Source: Kordia periserrulae
GTDB lineage: Bacteria > Bacteroidota > Bacteroidia > Flavobacteriales > Flavobacteriaceae
Length of the DNA stretch: 64,000 nucleotides
NCBI RefSeq assembly: GCF_003054265.1
Contig: NZ_QBKT01000007.1
Coordinates: 62,001-126,000 of the forward strand
Direction: 5' to 3'
Under the pieces are notes generated by a model, which saw nothing but the letters and a program-made list of their open reading frames with translations, did no database searches and had not been told where the DNA came from. Position numbers and translations under genes: made by a program. Below, one piece after another: positions 20,487-27,539 of the stretch. Every line of letters begins with the position of its first letter. The stretch's first letter is position 1.

Positions 20487-21737
20487 TTATTTCACAACTA
20501 GCTGAATCGTTTGGTCAGCGCGCTGTTCTAACAAAATTTCTTTGCCTTTTTGCAAACCTTCAATCGCCGCTTCCGTAAAGTGTCGGATAGTGTATAGCGA
20601 CACATTTTCATGATGTGTGACTTTGAATTTTGAGCGTAAAATTTTGAGTAATTTTTCCAAATTGTTAAACTTATTGTCGACACATACCGAAAAACTAATG
20701 GCTGAATTTTGAATAACGTCTACTTTCATTTTAGAATCGTGCAACAGTTTGAAGATTTCGCTAATGTTATTTTCTACGATAAAAGAGAAATCTAAGGACG
20801 ACAACGAAATCAATACTTGATTCTTTTTAACAATAAAACACGGCACATTTGGCGTAATTCCTGCTCCTTTTTTGACGGCAGTTCCAGCGGCTTTTGGATT
20901 TAAAAACGATTTTACATACAACGGAATTTCTTTTCGTTGCAAGGGTTGTAATGTTTTCGGGTGAATGACAGACGCGCCATAAAATGCCAACTCAATCGCT
21001 TCTCGATAGGAAATGTGATGTAATAATTGTGCGTTTTCAAAATAACGCGGATCGGCATTTAGTACGCCAGGAACATCTTTCCAAATGGTGACACTTTCTG
21101 CATTTAAACAATAGGCAAAAATGGCCGCTGTATAGTCAGAGCCTTCTCGTCCGAGCGTTGTGGTAAAATTATTCGGGTCACTTCCTATAAATCCTTGTGT
21201 AATATTTAGTTTGCTGCGATTGACGTTTTGTTTGATATTTTCCTGTGTCAATTCCCAATCGACTTTTGCATCGCGGTAATTGGTGTCGGTTTTTATCATT
21301 TCGCGTGTGTCGAGCCAGGTATTTTCAATAGAAACGTCATTTAAATACGCACTGACTATGGTGGTAGAAATCAATTCTCCAAATGACACTAATTGGTCGT
21401 ACACATAATTGTAATCTGGTGATTTGTTACGTCCTAAAAAGCCCTGCATTTCTTCAAAAAACTGCTTGACTTTTCCAAAAATTGGGTGACTCTCGTTGGG
21501 AAATAAGTCCAACAAAATTTCATTGTGATATTTCGCAATTTCTTGAATCGACGCTTGCAATTCGTTGTTTTTTTCAAAGTAGTTTTTGATGACAACTTCA
21601 ATAGCGTTCGTCGTTTTTCCCATCGCAGAAATCACAATTAACGTATTGTCATACCCTACTTGCTGCAATACATTTACTAGGTTTTTTACACCATTGGCAT
21701 CTTTTACAGACGCTCCACCAAATTTGAATATTTTCAT
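20487..21737 (-). CDS. Aspartate kinase
   Basis: 416 aa, monofunctional. It phosphorylates aspartate, the first step to lysine, threonine and methionine. The start MKIFKFGGASVKDANGV is the KFGG(T/A)SV signature, TTLGREGSDYTAA is the second conserved block, and the C-terminal 130 residues form ACT-type regulatory domains (LDFSFIVENNISEIF). No homoserine dehydrogenase is fused to it. Feedback control by lysine or threonine is likely through the ACT part but cannot be assigned. Confidence 0.93.
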   Translation of the reverse strand: MKIFKFGGASVKDANGVKNLVNVLQQVGYDNTLIVISAMGKTTNAIEVVIKNYFEKNNELQASIQEIAKYHNEILLDLFPNESHPIFGKVKQFFEEMQGFLGRNKSPDYNYVYDQLVSFGELISTTIVSAYLNDVSIENTWLDTREMIKTDTNYRDAKVDWELTQENIKQNVNRSKLNITQGFIGSDPNNFTTTLGREGSDYTAAIFAYCLNAESVTIWKDVPGVLNADPRYFENAQLLHHISYREAIELAFYGASVIHPKTLQPLQRKEIPLYVKSFLNPKAAGTAVKKGAGITPNVPCFIVKKNQVLISLSSLDFSFIVENNISEIFKLLHDSKMKVDVIQNSAISFSVCVDNKFNNLEKLLKILRSKFKVTHHENVSLYTIRHFTEAAIEGLQKGKEILLEQRADQTIQLVVK

Positions 21738-21749
21738 AACAAAATTTTA

Positions 21750-21782
21750 TTTTGTTGTTCCCGCGCAGGCGGGAATCTATTA
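21750..21782. repeat. Dispersed repeat family 1, copy 1
   Basis: TTCCCGC-GCAG-GCGGGAA hairpin preceded by TTGTTG and followed by TCTATTAC. A GC-rich variant of the palindromes at 21841, 26971 and 39717. Confidence 0.65.
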
Positions 21783-21840
21783 CTTTTGAAACTTTACTAA
21801 TATCAAGTTTCTACTCCGCCAATACCTTTTTCGCTGCAAA

Positions 21841-21869
21841 ATGGATTCCTGCCTTCGCAGGAATGACAT
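21841..21869. repeat. Dispersed repeat family 1, copy 2 (inverted)
   Basis: ATGGATTCCTGC-CTTC-GCAGGAATGACA, inverted relative to the copies at 26971 and 39717. Sits about 90 bases from copy 1 in the gap between aspartate kinase and the GNAT gene. Confidence 0.7.
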
Positions 21870-21912
21870 TAGATATATCTCAATAATAAAATCTAAAATC
21901 TTACCAAGCAGC

Positions 21913-22395
21913 TCATTTCCTACTTAGCAAATACTTCTCAATTCCTGCTTCATCCAACTGCACTACATGCCAATCGCGCATGACATTGGCTCCGATGTGT
22001 TCGTAAAATTCTATCGCAGGCGTGTTCCAGTCCAACACTTCCCAACCAATTCGTTTCACGCCTAATTCCTTTCCAAACTTAATGACTTCGGTCAGCAATG
22101 CACCACCAATTCCTTTGCCGCGTGCTTTTTCGCTCACAATTAAATCTTCCAAATGCAATACTTCACCTTTCCAAGTAGAATAACGCATGTACACCAATGC
22201 AATACCGAGCACTTCTTCGGTTGTTTCTGCTACAAAACAATGAAATTTTGGTTGTGCACCAAAACCATCTTTTTGCAAATCTTCTGGTGTAATGATGACG
22301 GCATCTGCTTCTTTTTCAAAAATTGCCAATTCGTTAATCAATCTAAAAATAGCATCAACATCGGTTGCAACGGCTTTTCGGATGGTAAAGTTCAT
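21913..22395 (-). CDS. GNAT family N-acetyltransferase (diamine acetyltransferase-like)
   Basis: 160 aa from the chosen ATG ([17 protein letters not shown]). The acetyl-CoA-binding motif reads [11 protein letters not shown], and the pattern [28 protein letters not shown] resembles the spermidine/thialysine acetyltransferase subgroup. The open frame begins ten codons earlier, but the family start is here. Divergent from fbp. Substrate unproven. Confidence 0.85.
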
Positions 22396-22508
22396 ACGTG
22401 TCAAATATTTACACAAAGGTAACAAGGCAAATATTATATTTTTTACGAAAACGTTATAGTTTTACAAAATTATCGATATTTGTGATTTCAGAAACAACCC
22501 AGAGCAAC

Positions 22509-23513
22509 ATGGCCAAAAAAAATCAAACTTTAGGAGAATTTATTATTGAAAACCAAGCTGAATTCAAATATTCTTCTGGAGAACTTTCCCGATTGATCAA
22601 TTCTATCCGACTCGCCGCAAAGGTGGTAAATCACGAAGTAAATAAAGCAGGATTGGTAGATATTATCGGAGCTGCTGGCGATACTAATATTCAAGGAGAA
22701 GACCAGCAAAAGCTTGATGTGTACGCCAATGAAAAGTTTATTCAAACCTTGAGCAATCGTAATATTGTGTGCGGAATTGGCTCTGAAGAGAACGATGATT
22801 TTATCGCGATTAATAGTTTGGACGAGAACAATCAAAATAAATATGTGGTGCTGATTGATCCGCTTGATGGTTCTTCTAATATTGATGTAAATGTTTCTGT
22901 GGGAACTATTTTTTCGGTCTACCGAAGAGTAACGCCCGTTGGAACACCTGTTACGATTGACGATTTCCTACAAGAAGGAAACAAGCAAGTTGCTGCAGGT
23001 TATGTGATTTACGGAACGTCAACGATGCTCGTGTACACTACAGGTCATGGCGTAAATGGTTTTACCTTAAATCCTGCTATTGGAACGTTTTATTTATCGC
23101 ATCCCAGCATGCAATTTCCAGAAACAGGAAATATTTATTCCATTAACGAAGGGAATTATGCACATTTCCCGCAAGGTGTAAAAAGTTATATCAAATATTG
23201 CCAGGAAGAAAAAGAAGATCGTCCGTACACGTCGCGTTATATTGGCTCGTTGGTCTCTGATTTCCATAGAAATTTGATTAAAGGCGGCATTTATATTTAT
23301 CCACAAACTTCTAAAGCTCCTAATGGTAAATTGCGTTTGTTGTACGAATGCAATCCGATGGCATTTTTAGCAGAGCAAGCAAACGGATTGGCTTCTGACG
23401 GTTTTCAACGTATTCTAGACATTCAACCAACGGAGTTGCATCAACGTGTTCCTATCTTTTGTGGCAGCCGCAAAATGGTAGAAAAAGCAGAAGAGTTTAT
23501 GAAGAACTCGTAG
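22509..23513 (+). CDS. fbp: Fructose-1,6-bisphosphatase, class I
   Basis: 334 aa from the chosen ATG ([16 protein letters not shown]), the normal class I length. Gluconeogenic enzyme. Metal site [19 protein letters not shown], the [11 protein letters not shown] segment and the catalytic-lysine region [18 protein letters not shown] are all present. An in-frame TTG at 22398 lies too far upstream and would overlap the divergent gene's start region. Confidence 0.96.
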
Positions 23514-23580: not shown

Positions 23581-23949
23581 ATGACTACAAAAGGTGAAAA
23601 TACCAACGATACTGGTGAAATAAATCCTAGCATGACCGATCCGTCTACTAAGATTGAGGCGATTAAGAATTTAATTTTTGGAGAAAATATTCAAGCCTAC
23701 AATTCTGAGTTTGACAATATCAAAAATGATATTCTTGCCAAAAAACAAGCACTTGAAAATTTGATTGAAGAAGTGCGTTCAGAATTGATTCAAAATATTG
23801 ATAATTTGAGCACTGACTTAAATATTCGCATTACTGAATTGGAATCGAATATGGAAAATAAGTTAGATAATTTGGACGAAAAGAAAGTCGATCGTAGACA
23901 ATTAGGGCAGTTACTCATCAACCTTGGTGAGAAGATTGGGAAAGAATAA
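23581..23949 (+). CDS. Small coiled-coil protein of the Rab-like GTPase operon
   Basis: 122 aa, no named family recognised. The first 35 residues after a polar start resemble the N-terminus of the next protein: IEAIKNLIFGENIQAY here against LTLLKDLLLTDDRAYA there, so the two share a short module. Residues about 45-105 form a heptad-rich coiled coil (Leu/Ile with Glu/Lys/Asp). The tail DRRQLGQLLINLGEKIGKE is amphipathic. No signal peptide or membrane segment, so cytosolic. It leads the operon and may be an adaptor or oligomerisation partner of the 278-residue protein (inference). Confidence 0.75.
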   Translation: MTTKGENTNDTGEINPSMTDPSTKIEAIKNLIFGENIQAYNSEFDNIKNDILAKKQALENLIEEVRSELIQNIDNLSTDLNIRITELESNMENKLDNLDEKKVDRRQLGQLLINLGEKIGKE

Positions 23950-23976
23950 CCCACAACATATTCCTTATGTGTATTT

Positions 23977-24813
23977 ATGACGGAAGCTGATAAATTAACG
24001 TTATTAAAAGATTTATTACTCACGGACGATCGTGCGTATGCGGAATCTATACACAAAAAAATCAAAGCACTTGAAGAAGTTATCAACGAGCAAAAAAAGC
24101 TTTCCAACAAAGTCGATCCTATTATTGACGAACGATTGGAAGCGTTTATTGAAGAAATTCCCGAAACGCTCGGTCCAACTATCACTGAAGCGTTAGCGGA
24201 GCAGATTAAAAATTCCAAAGACCAAGTAGTGGAAGCCTTGTATCCCATTATGGGAAAGATGATTAAAAAGTACATTTCGCAGGAAATCAACTTGCTTACG
24301 GAGCGCATCAACAAGCAATTGGAAGATAGTTTTTCTGCCAAAAGCTGGAAACGAAAATTCAGATCGTGGTTTGGTGGCGTTCGTGAAGAAGAGTTGCTAC
24401 TGAGTCAGTTATCCTCTATTTCACAAGTAGAACAAGTGCTGGTTGTGGAAAAAAATTCTGGCGTGCTTATTGGACAATATGCCAAAACGGAAACGATTGA
24501 TAAAGATATGGTTTCAGGAATGTTAACTGCAATTAAAAGTTTTGTAGAAGATGCCTTTCAAGGAAAAAGTCAAAACTTAGAATTGATTGAGTACGAATTG
24601 TATCATATTCATATTCAAAGTTTTGTATCTTATTACGTAGCCGTTGTCATTTCTGGAGAATATAATCTTATCTTTAAGAACAAAATCCAAGATATAATCT
24701 TTAATTTTACCGATAACTTTTTGAACTTATTTAGCGATTTAAGCAACATAAAAGAAGAAGACATTACTAACGAATTAGAATTCTACTTTAGTACGAATGA
24801 AGAAAGCCTCTAA
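23977..24813 (+). CDS. GTPase-partner protein (coiled coil plus roadblock/longin-like C-terminal domain)
   Basis: 278 aa. The N-terminal 130 residues are helical (LLKDLLLTDDRAYAE, then a coiled coil) with ALYPIMGKMIKKYI and SWKRKFRSWFGG in the middle. From memory these, together with VEQVLVVEKNSGVLIG and DMVSGMLTAIKSFVEDAF, match a soluble domain that in cyanobacteria is fused to OmpA. The C-terminal 130 residues have the alternating strand-helix pattern of a roadblock/longin domain; that fold call is inference. Roadblock proteins such as MglB regulate small GTPases, and the next gene, overlapping by 17 bases, encodes one. Not itself an outer-membrane protein. Confidence 0.75.
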   Translation: MTEADKLTLLKDLLLTDDRAYAESIHKKIKALEEVINEQKKLSNKVDPIIDERLEAFIEEIPETLGPTITEALAEQIKNSKDQVVEALYPIMGKMIKKYISQEINLLTERINKQLEDSFSAKSWKRKFRSWFGGVREEELLLSQLSSISQVEQVLVVEKNSGVLIGQYAKTETIDKDMVSGMLTAIKSFVEDAFQGKSQNLELIEYELYHIHIQSFVSYYVAVVISGEYNLIFKNKIQDIIFNFTDNFLNLFSDLSNIKEEDITNELEFYFSTNEESL

Positions 24814-25291
24814 AAAAATAATCCTACTTGGTCACTTTGGTGTCGGGAAATCTTCCTTGATACGACAGTTTGTTGAAAATACGTTTACAACAGACTACAA
24901 AGTTACTATTGGAGTTCATATCCTTAAAAAAGAAGTGAAAATTTCGCCCGAAGAAACCATTTCACTGATTATTTGGGATTTGGAAGGATACGACGACATT
25001 AGAAAAACCAGAGCCTCCTACCTACTAGGCACACATGGTTTTATTTATGTGTTTGACGTAACGCGCCCCGCAACCTTCGAAAATCTGAAAGACGACATAA
25101 CCTACCTAACCAACCAATACGCCAATACACCACTAAAAATTGTGGGGAATAAAGCAGACTTGGTTACCAAAACGTATTTAAAAGAAAACAACGACATGTT
25201 TGCTGTGGCGCCTGACTTTTTTACAAGTGCAAAAACAGGTGATAAAGTAGACGATATGTTCATCGCCCTTGCTAAAGAACTTGTGAAATAA
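24797..25291 (+). CDS. Rab/Ras-like small GTPase
   Basis: 164 aa, a single G domain. G1 is GHFGVGKSS (residues 12-20), the switch I Thr lies in DYKVTIGVH, G3 is WDLEGYD, G4 is NKAD and G5 is TSAKTG. The order and the WDxxG form are those of the Rab/Ras branch rather than translational GTPases. The residue after the G3 glycine, Gln61 in Ras, is Tyr, so intrinsic hydrolysis may be weak. There is no C-terminal Cys for prenylation and no membrane helix. Its start overlaps the preceding gene by 17 bases and the kinase gene follows after two bases, so the three are translationally linked. Confidence 0.9.
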   Translation: MKKASKKIILLGHFGVGKSSLIRQFVENTFTTDYKVTIGVHILKKEVKISPEETISLIIWDLEGYDDIRKTRASYLLGTHGFIYVFDVTRPATFENLKDDITYLTNQYANTPLKIVGNKADLVTKTYLKENNDMFAVAPDFFTSAKTGDKVDDMFIALAKELVK

Positions 25292-25293
25292 TT

Positions 25294-26832
25294 ATGATGT
25301 TAGAAACCTACAGAGGAACTTATTTTCATCCCAGAACACAATTTATAACTATAGATACATCAGGAAATGTCCTTGAAAGTGATGATGTGCTTTTCCCCGT
25401 TAAAAAAGGAGAAGATATCAGTAATATCAGTGCTTTTTTTGAAGGTCTTTCTACGTATTTTGAAGCGGAAGAAGACAACGATATCAAATTTACCTGTGTG
25501 CATCTGGAAGATCAAAACAAACACGAATATACCTGCGATATTGAGTTTAAAACTTTTGCAGATGCTGCCAAACCAACGTTGATTATTATTCACGATTTTT
25601 CCGACCATTACAAATACTATCAAGAAGTTGCACAAAGTAGAAATGAATCGGTCATCAACTCGCAAATTTTAGAGTTAAAGAACAAATATCTTAAAGAAAA
25701 AGAAGATTTTAAAAATACCTTTATCGCGAATTTTAGTCACGAATTGCGCAATCCGTTAACTGGTGTAACAGCTTTTTGTTCGGTATTGCAAAAAACGGAC
25801 ATGACGCTAGAGCAGCAAGATTATGTAGAAGTCATCAAATCGTCCGCAGACCATTTAAAAAATATGATTGGTGATATTTTGGAAGTGTCCAAAATTGAAG
25901 TCGGGAAATTAATGCTCAACGAAGAACTCTTCAACTTTCATGAACTCATTGAAATGCTGGAGTTTACCTATAGCGTAAAAGCCAAGCAGAAAAGCTTAGA
26001 ATTTGAAGTCGATTTTGACAAAAAAATTCCAAAATATATTGAAGCTGATAAAACACGCATCAAACAAATATTGGAAAACCTGATTGAAAATGCGCTGAAA
26101 TTTACTACCTCTGGAAAAGTTACGTTTGCTATGCATGCTAACCAAAAAAGAGCGCGCAAAGTCAACATAGACATTAGCATCAAAGACACAGGAATTGGAA
26201 TTCCAGCTGACAAACTTGAGGTGATTTTCCACAGCTTTACCCAACTCAACAATTCGCAAAAGTTTAAAGGTACTGGACTTGGTTTGTCAATTGTAAAAGG
26301 ATTGGTAGAATTGATGGAAGGAAAAATTTCAGTAGAAAGTGAGGAAGGAAAAGGAACAGCTTTCAAAATCAATATGAATCTGAAATATCCTATCAATCAA
26401 GAACAGACATCTTTAGATAAAAAATCAGAAATTGAAAAGAAAAACTTTCTATCCAAAGAAAAATACAGCATCCTACTAGCGGAAGATTCCGAATTGGCAC
26501 AAATGGCAGTTTTGAAAATTTTAGCACAAGAAGGAAATTTCTTTTTAGACATCATTACCAATGGCGAAGATGTGATTGAAAGCGTGATTCACAACGAATA
26601 CGACTTAATTTTGATGGACATCCGCATGCCAGGAACACACGGCGATGAACTTACCAAAATGATTCGCTCGTTGCCTGTAGAAAACTGCAAAACCATTCCA
26701 ATTTTGGCGTTGACCGCAAATTTGTATGATACCGACAAAAAACGCTATAAAAAAATGGGCATGACCGACATCATCGAAAAACCATTTGACGAAAGTACCT
26801 TGTTGAAAAAAGTGTACAAGCATTTGAAATAA
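25294..26832 (+). CDS. Soluble hybrid histidine kinase (PAS-like sensor, kinase, receiver)
   Basis: 512 aa with no membrane segment. Residues 1-110 look like a PAS-type sensor (TYRGTYFHPRTQFITIDTSGN). A short coiled coil leads to HisKA with the phosphoacceptor His149 in NFSHELRNPLTG, then the HATPase domain with N-box ENLIENALKFT and GTGLGLSIVKG. The C-terminal receiver (about 390-512) has acidic residues in LLAEDSEL and the phosphoacceptor Asp442 in LILMDIRMPG. It is the last gene of the GTPase operon, suggesting that GTPase state and phosphorelay are coupled. No DNA-binding output is encoded nearby. Confidence 0.9.
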   Translation: MMLETYRGTYFHPRTQFITIDTSGNVLESDDVLFPVKKGEDISNISAFFEGLSTYFEAEEDNDIKFTCVHLEDQNKHEYTCDIEFKTFADAAKPTLIIIHDFSDHYKYYQEVAQSRNESVINSQILELKNKYLKEKEDFKNTFIANFSHELRNPLTGVTAFCSVLQKTDMTLEQQDYVEVIKSSADHLKNMIGDILEVSKIEVGKLMLNEELFNFHELIEMLEFTYSVKAKQKSLEFEVDFDKKIPKYIEADKTRIKQILENLIENALKFTTSGKVTFAMHANQKRARKVNIDISIKDTGIGIPADKLEVIFHSFTQLNNSQKFKGTGLGLSIVKGLVELMEGKISVESEEGKGTAFKINMNLKYPINQEQTSLDKKSEIEKKNFLSKEKYSILLAEDSELAQMAVLKILAQEGNFFLDIITNGEDVIESVIHNEYDLILMDIRMPGTHGDELTKMIRSLPVENCKTIPILALTANLYDTDKKRYKKMGMTDIIEKPFDESTLLKKVYKHLK

Positions 26833-27107: not shown

Positions 27108-27539
27108 CTAACGATTCATATTTCTAATTTCATCTTTAAAATCTTCGCTATCAACACCTTTCCCAACTAGCATTAATGCTTTATGTACGATGTACGCGAC
27201 ATTTTCAGGAGAAAATCCTAATCCGATTCCCAAACGCTCTAACATTACCGTTTGTTTTGGTCCTAATTCGTGGTCTGCATATACCATTCGAGCCAAATCA
27301 TACAAACGTTCCAAACGTTCACTGTACATGGTTGGTGGATTAATTGGATGCGATTTATAATCTTTCAAAATCGCTTTATAATCGCTTTCCGAGATATCCA
27401 AATTACTTGCCATTCTATCTAAAAAAGCTTTTTCTTCGTCTGTTATAACGCCGTCACTCATTGCTACGCGAACAATGGCTGCAAAGTGGTCTTGATTTCT
27501 TTCGCGAAATCCACTTGAATATAAATCTGATATAGACAT
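27108..27539 (-). CDS. TerB family protein
   Basis: 143 aa, all-helical. It resembles the TerB/tellurite-resistance fold: ERNQDHFAAIVRVAMSDGVI with TDEEKAFL, an acidic metal-binding-like turn. No terACDZ genes accompany it, so tellurite resistance should not be assumed. The role is unknown; related stand-alone TerB proteins are widespread in Bacteroidota. Its promoter region diverges from mfd. Confidence 0.8.
   Translation of the reverse strand: MSISDLYSSGFRERNQDHFAAIVRVAMSDGVITDEEKAFLDRMASNLDISESDYKAILKDYKSHPINPPTMYSERLERLYDLARMVYADHELGPKQTVMLERLGIGLGFSPENVAYIVHKALMLVGKGVDSEDFKDEIRNMNR

Follow-up and report, generated by a model that had tools for sequence, protein, structure and literature searches.

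A Group 1 Rup small-GTPase unit of Kordia periserrulae with a predicted roadblock/longin-type partner protein

Group 1 Rup GTPases lack the Gln of the G3 motif, and their genes have two neighbours, one for a coiled-coil protein and one whose product contains a conserved domain without a name, behind which a membrane helix and an OmpA domain are often found (Wuichet and Sogaard-Andersen 2014, PMC4316618). Typical Rup outputs are kinases and diguanylate cyclases/phosphodiesterases whose N-terminal region holds an invariant Gln, and the catalytic Gln was speculated to come in trans (PMC4316618). According to that account no Rup protein had been experimentally characterised as of 2014; it also terms Rup systems analogous to conservons and reports that the G3 Asp is conserved in GTPases other than MglA. 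A literature search in which subscription journals were mostly not covered returned no later work on the Rup family, and bacterial longins might have been mentioned in print before. Here we describe a four-gene unit at 23581-26832 of a 64,000-nucleotide stretch of the Kordia periserrulae genome (the window; contig NZ_QBKT01000007.1, positions 62,001 to 126,000). Its four genes lie on the + strand and encode a coiled-coil protein, a protein with a C-terminal domain of interest, a small GTPase and a hybrid histidine kinase of 122, 278, 164 and 512 amino acids (aa), respectively. Judged by its sequence features, the unit is a member of the described Group 1 Rup family. A first-pass annotation made from the sequence alone had presented it as little-described; as a claim of novelty this does not hold, as the four-gene system is already in the 2014 paper, where the domain of the 278-aa protein was left unnamed (PMC4316618).

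The gene set, the gene order, the changes in the GTPase motifs, the invariant Gln and the exchange of output enzymes are read from sequences, and each agrees with this assignment. The GTPase is a single-domain Ras-type protein within the range of 150-240 aa, which keeps the G3 Asp and lacks the G3 Gln. A gene for a coiled-coil cytoplasmic protein adjoins in 80 of 80 loci from close relatives. The adjoining conserved-domain protein belongs to a family that carries OmpA in all 12 of the more distant loci, although this tail is absent in the window, and the output enzyme has an invariant Gln in its N-terminal region (Q114). The first-pass annotation had described overlapping or near-abutting genes and expected their order to be conserved in relatives, and both points were borne out. 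The 278-aa gene runs 17 bases into the GTPase gene, and the start of the kinase gene lies 2 bases past the GTPase stop. Counting the genome itself, the 278-aa protein and the GTPase co-occur in the same 16 of 60 relatives, and both are present in all ten Kordia genomes searched. The order coiled-coil, 278-aa protein, GTPase, kinase is kept in the 15 other relative genomes read (15/15). A scan of public genomes gave at least 416 confirmed relatives of the 278-aa protein, from which the best 80 loci were kept; these come from Flavobacteriaceae genera or from bins labelled Flavobacteriales, Bacteroidia or Bacteroidetes, and since they were selected for similarity to the 278-aa protein, they count as close relatives and cannot be treated as independent. 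The first three genes stand in order in 80/80, so that chance neighbourhood is ruled out, and the kinase follows in 78/80; in the two loci without it (L076 and L091) the contig breaks off about 1.2 kb past the GTPase gene. The counterpart of the 278-aa gene overlaps the GTPase gene in 66 of these 80 loci. A phylum-wide draw of 296 genomes contained 13 with a match to the 278-aa protein, its own genome included. The distant set comprises 12 loci from 11 of these 13 genomes, all outside the taxonomic order of Kordia, and such a GTPase is present in the stretch read of nine.

The C-terminal domain of the 278-aa protein is predicted to have a roadblock/longin-type fold. An AlphaFold2 single-chain model of residues 117-278 had a predicted local distance difference test score (pLDDT) of 75.5 and the longin topology, b-b-a-b-b-b-a-a; an earlier structure model from 11 sequences was poor (pLDDT 55.9). 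The most conserved stretch of the domain, SGMLTAIKSFVEDAF, is its central helix. In hhalign, the domain matched Roadblock/LC7 with a score of 34.1 over 84 columns (E 3.6e-5, probability 71.5), and 100 shuffles scored 20.6 at most. The profile similarity to Roadblock/LC7 domains exceeds chance. Such a domain had been proposed in the first-pass annotation, and the prediction from AlphaFold2, Foldseek, VIA-align and hhalign supports it. Chains of MglB appeared in Foldseek at rank 21 (E 1.9e-3); they were not among the 50 VIA-align rows, an absence that shows nothing. The Robl_LC7 model (PF03259) had no match in the 278-aa protein and none in the own genome or 39 other relatives, and no longin Pfam model matched the domain family above cut-off.

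The size and the anchoring of this protein differ between lineages. In the 80 close loci the counterpart has 267-290 aa, and its hydropathy exceeds 1.6 in one of them (1.69). In all 12 distant loci it has 589-636 aa, with a hydrophobic segment behind the common domain (19-residue mean of at least 1.88) and a Pfam OmpA match, which in L153 lies just under the Pfam cut-off. Proteins encoded on Mesorhizobium and Nostoc plasmids have the same make-up of domain, hydrophobic segment and OmpA. The highest 19-residue Kyte-Doolittle mean across the proteins of the window unit is 1.23, and there is no membrane-like segment. The lack of membrane segments in the earlier description holds for this lineage, and the cytosolic state is a lineage trait. 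The 122-aa and 278-aa proteins have similar helix motifs at their starts, such as IEAIKNLIFGEN and LTLLKDLLLTDD, and a single loose pattern recovers the motif in 90 of 92 relatives of the coiled-coil protein and in 88 of 93 of those of the 278-aa protein. Only in this respect are they the two related coiled-coil proteins that had been supposed. The coiled coil of the 122-aa protein was judged from the sequence, without a dedicated predictor. Pfam and NCBIfam searches gave no usable match for either protein, and none above the Pfam curated cut-off.

The GTPase has all five G motifs (GHFGVGKS, T37, WDLEG, GNKAD and SAK), as had been noted, and the missing hydrolysis Gln in its G3 motif, WDLEGY, had passed unnoticed. 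The switch I Thr and the Asp and Gly of G3 are retained. We tallied 103 GTPases, one fragment among the 104 collected being dropped and some Kordia loci being counted twice. Phe takes the place of Ras Gly12 in 97 of them and Glu that of Ala59 in 92, and the G3 Gln is absent in 95. GTPases from Mesorhizobium, Rhizobium and Nostoc plasmids match at 37-38% identity. In Ras and Rab the G3 Gln serves hydrolysis, and changes at positions 12, 59 and 61 impair the hydrolysis that is driven by a GTPase-activating protein (GAP) in Ras. Rap GTPases, likewise without Gln61, rely on a residue that their GAP provides. Together with the Rap precedent, loss of the G3 Gln fits the 2014 suggestion of a Gln in trans (PMC4316618).

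The 512-aa protein has HisKA, HATPase_c and Response_reg domains by Pfam and no membrane-like segment, in keeping with the soluble hybrid histidine kinase that had been annotated. In the aligned relatives His149 is conserved in 11/11, the receiver Asp442 in 10/11 and Lys496 in 11/11. No Hpt or DNA-binding domain was found with Pfam in the four proteins. The N-domain of the kinase is, as its sequence relatives indicate, a module of its own that stands before different output enzymes. One Gln is its sole invariant residue in 21 of 21 output proteins, which were picked for diversity and include adenylate cyclase and sigma-54-activator outputs. This Gln is the only invariant column in an 18-row alignment and corresponds to Q114 of the window kinase; among all N-domain hits in the loci (duplicates included) it is present in 112 of 113, and the exception is a 127-aa fragment. 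Adenylate/guanylate cyclase outputs with the same Gln are found on Mesorhizobium and Rhizobium plasmids (L161:9342-10412 and L163:9343-10413), and a sigma-54 activator output with it at L144:4905-6656. An N-domain without a kinase occurs in 7/80 loci (L090, L113, L117, L120, L124, L126 and L127), and five of these (L090, L113, L117, L120 and L126) have a second GTPase gene; the free N-domain of L113 is a fragment, as is the first GTPase there. The fold of the N-domain might be roadblock-like too. A Pfam search with it gave nothing usable. The first-pass annotation had called the kinase PAS-like; hhalign of the N-domain against the PAS_9 domains of its own genome was not significant (15.7, E 0.085, 25 columns). 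Against roadblock it scored 12.9, and the comparison with the longin-like domain led nowhere. The best match in a PDB profile search, the RagA C-terminal domain (E 0.48), was too weak to use.

Proteins of the roadblock/longin fold are frequent binding partners of small GTPases, whose nucleotide state they set. We propose that in the Group 1 Rup system a small GTPase acts as the switch for an interchangeable signalling enzyme. The coiled-coil and 278-aa proteins, with their shared N-terminal helix motif, may assemble together. The longin-like protein, perhaps with its coiled-coil partner, would recruit the GTPase and promote GTP loading or hold it. The GTP-bound GTPase would then dock on the N-domain of the kinase and alter kinase activity. 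Having no catalytic Gln of its own, the GTPase would be switched off with the help of the N-domain, and the invariant Gln of that domain may reach into the active site and end the signal. In other lineages the longin protein, tied to the envelope by its membrane helix and OmpA domain, may report on the cell envelope. This anchor is lost in the window and in the 80 close loci, and therefore the input there would have to be cytosolic or come through other partners. Complex formation, exchange, hydrolysis, the Gln in trans, the signalling direction and the phosphotransfer target are inferred. We consider this proposal as a whole to have a slightly better than even chance of being right, because good support exists for the identity and the fold but not for the mechanism.

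The direction of signalling could be the reverse. The kinase would then sense a signal and, as the input, act on the longin-GTPase pair, and the GTP-bound GTPase would be the output on an unlinked target, in the manner posited for actinobacterial conservons. Conservons contain the same classes of parts, namely a histidine kinase, a roadblock protein, a GTPase and a further protein (PMC13343842), and a GTPase output has been posited for those of actinobacteria (PMC4316618). The envelope-anchored longin-OmpA relatives could also be the target site as well as a sensor. However, the enzyme of the fourth gene varies (kinase, adenylate cyclase or sigma-54 activator) behind a constant N-domain, which is output-like, and the Kordia kinase has its own receiver, whereas the conservon is without a response regulator (PMC4316618). 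We regard this reversed direction as unlikely.

Gene distances were compared at the 46 loci that have all five genes, with the species signal removed via fbp. The GTPase distances co-vary with those of the kinase parts at 0.70-0.75; the values are 0.56 for the N-terminal part of the 278-aa protein and 0.44 for the longin-like domain. The longin gene and the GTPase gene lie on opposite strands in 4 of the 9 distant loci with a GTPase. These figures and the opposite strands point to two sub-modules, the coiled-coil and 278-aa proteins on the one hand and the GTPase and output enzyme on the other. The weaker co-variation with the longin-like domain than with the kinase would also be expected if the domain were a structural dimerisation or envelope-positioning part and the GTPase were handled by the N-domain alone or by unlinked proteins. 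The central helix SGMLTAIKSFVEDAF corresponds to the region named as the roadblock dimer interface, not every longin protein takes part in GTPase regulation (PMC10933270), and in three distant loci the protein is retained and the stretch read contains no such GTPase. Nevertheless, the gene is linked to the GTPase in every close locus, mostly by overlap, and in three quarters of the distant ones, and a purely structural role seems to us quite improbable. It is very unlikely that the GTPase barely hydrolyses GTP and is a constitutive GTP-bound scaffold set by its amount or by the GTP level with no GAP, as the changes at the Gly12, Ala59 and Gln61 positions could suggest, given that the switch I Thr and the G3 Asp and Gly are retained and that the invariant N-domain Gln fits a catalytic residue in trans, as PMC4316618 speculated.

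Several observations weigh against the proposed switch and its longin-like regulator. The longin Pfam matches are weak, namely Fuz_longin_1 at E 0.012 in 2/20 members and Sybindin at E 0.022 in 2/58. In a PDB profile search with the domain the best match was an unrelated YopH domain (E 0.15), followed by an archaeal-type roadblock protein (0.25) and BET5 (0.85), none of them significant. Eight GTPases that have the G3 Gln also keep the N-domain Gln, and the two residues are thus not simply complementary. Co-variation of the GTPase with the kinase core (0.75) is as high as with the N-domain (0.70), which does not single out the N-domain. Two tandem hybrid kinases stand behind one GTPase in 11/80 loci (L079, L082, L089, L093, L094, L096, L097, L099, L102, L115 and L118), and the ratio is therefore not fixed. 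Finally, 3 of the 12 distant loci have the coiled-coil and longin-OmpA genes and no such GTPase in the stretch. In these loci (L149, L150 and L152, from one Bacteroidota family) the two genes are adjacent, and a GTPase of the Rup kind was not found in the 18 kb read; either the gene pair works without the GTPase or the GTPase is elsewhere in the genome.

If the domain is a roadblock/longin platform, the Rup family gains a testable regulator. In that case the origin of Rab-longin pairs, which in the papers cited here is discussed for Asgard archaea, would also become testable in bacteria such as relatives of Kordia, Nostoc and Mesorhizobium, and it would be explained how one control unit serves kinases, adenylate cyclases and sigma-54 activators. 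A wider and tentative reading, which we think somewhat unlikely, is that bacteria have Rab-longin switches of their own. The Group 1 Rup domain would be a bacterial longin with a roadblock-type first helix in front and a longin-type extra helix behind, and would resemble an intermediate in the proposed circular permutation from roadblock to longin. The system, in which an envelope-set longin protein controls a Rab-like GTPase that is read out by an enzyme with the catalytic Gln, would be a bacterial counterpart or source of the eukaryotic Rab-longin partnership of membrane traffic.

The features of the unit are listed in Table 1. Genes for an aspartokinase, a GNAT protein, fbp and a TerB-like protein (window 20487-23513 and 27108-27539) flank the unit in 43-48 of the 80 loci. 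The upstream fbp and the downstream TerB-like gene were considered as members and rejected, being present in 48/80 and 45/80 and missing in L035, L037, L038 and L039. Their position looks like an ancestral, vertically kept chromosomal site with no functional link.

Table 1. Positions of the unit's genes, domains and key residues in the window
Feature	Position	Strand	Basis or remark
122-aa coiled-coil protein, N-terminal IKNLIFGEN motif	23581..23949	+	No Pfam match above cut-off
278-aa protein: N-terminal LKDLLLTDD motif, helical middle, predicted C-terminal roadblock/longin-like domain	23977..24813	+	
Predicted roadblock/longin-like domain, about residues 137-274 of the 278-aa protein	24385..24798	+	AlphaFold2 model, Foldseek, VIA-align, hhalign with shuffled controls
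164-aa Rab-like GTPase, Rup type	24797..25291	+	Pfam Ras E 4e-32; best solved relatives Rab1, Ypt1
F14 codon in GHFGVGKS, Ras Gly12 position	24836..24838	+	Phe in 97/103 GTPases
G3 motif WDLEGY, without catalytic Gln	24974..24991	+	Gln absent in 95/103; Glu at Ras Ala59 position in 92/103
512-aa soluble hybrid histidine kinase: N-domain, HisKA, HATPase_c, receiver	25294..26832	+	Pfam
Kinase N-domain, about residues 1-125, common to other output enzymes	25294..25668	+	
Q114 codon, invariant Gln of the kinase N-domain	25633..25635	+	21/21; sole invariant column in 18 rows; 112/113 N-domain hits

The Kordia unit shares with the Group 1 Rup systems the four gene classes, the G3 motif without Gln, the invariant Gln of the N-domain and a kinase, which is among the outputs named (PMC4316618). 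It differs in its 278-aa protein, which has neither membrane helix nor OmpA domain, both described as frequent in that paper. Our analysis goes beyond that description in the predicted assignment of the unnamed domain to the roadblock/longin group and in the relatives with adenylate cyclase and sigma-54 activator outputs, which are apart from the typical ones given there. As in MglA/MglB, a small GTPase gene adjoins the gene of a protein placed in the roadblock/longin superfamily. However, the Kordia GTPase keeps the G3 Asp (WDLEG), and its partner is not matched by Robl_LC7 and shows a topology of the longin type when modelled; membership of MglA/MglB is ruled out by the Asp and by the absent PF03259 match. 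Conservons/AGPS likewise combine a histidine kinase, a roadblock-superfamily protein, a small GTPase and a further protein in one operon (PMC13343842, PMC4316618). They contain an MglA-type GTPase and CvnC, whereas the unit described here has a Rup GTPase, a hybrid kinase with a receiver and coiled-coil proteins; the pair of MglA-type GTPase and MglB-type roadblock protein that defines conservons/AGPS is not found, with the G3 Asp kept and PF03259 absent.

The eukaryotic longin platforms (Mon1-Ccz1, TRAPP, CPLANE, BLOC-3, adaptor sigma and COPI subunits) resemble the Kordia domain in the predicted fold (VIA-align) and in the tie to a Rab-like GTPase. The host here is bacterial, unlike that of the eukaryotic Rab/Arf platforms, and no longin Pfam model matches above cut-off. 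Longin domains have been argued to derive from roadblock domains, the two being mutually circularly permuted (PMC3521125, 2012), and the longin has lost the first helix of the roadblock and gained an extra last helix at the same location (PMC10933270, 2024). Unlike longins, the Kordia domain matches roadblock in sequence over a region that includes the first helix, which longins lack. One Asgard archaeon has been described in which GTPase genes generally do not share operons with roadblock or longin genes (PMC10933270). A bacterial operon of a Rab-like GTPase and a longin-like protein bears both on the circular permutation and on the operon linkage.

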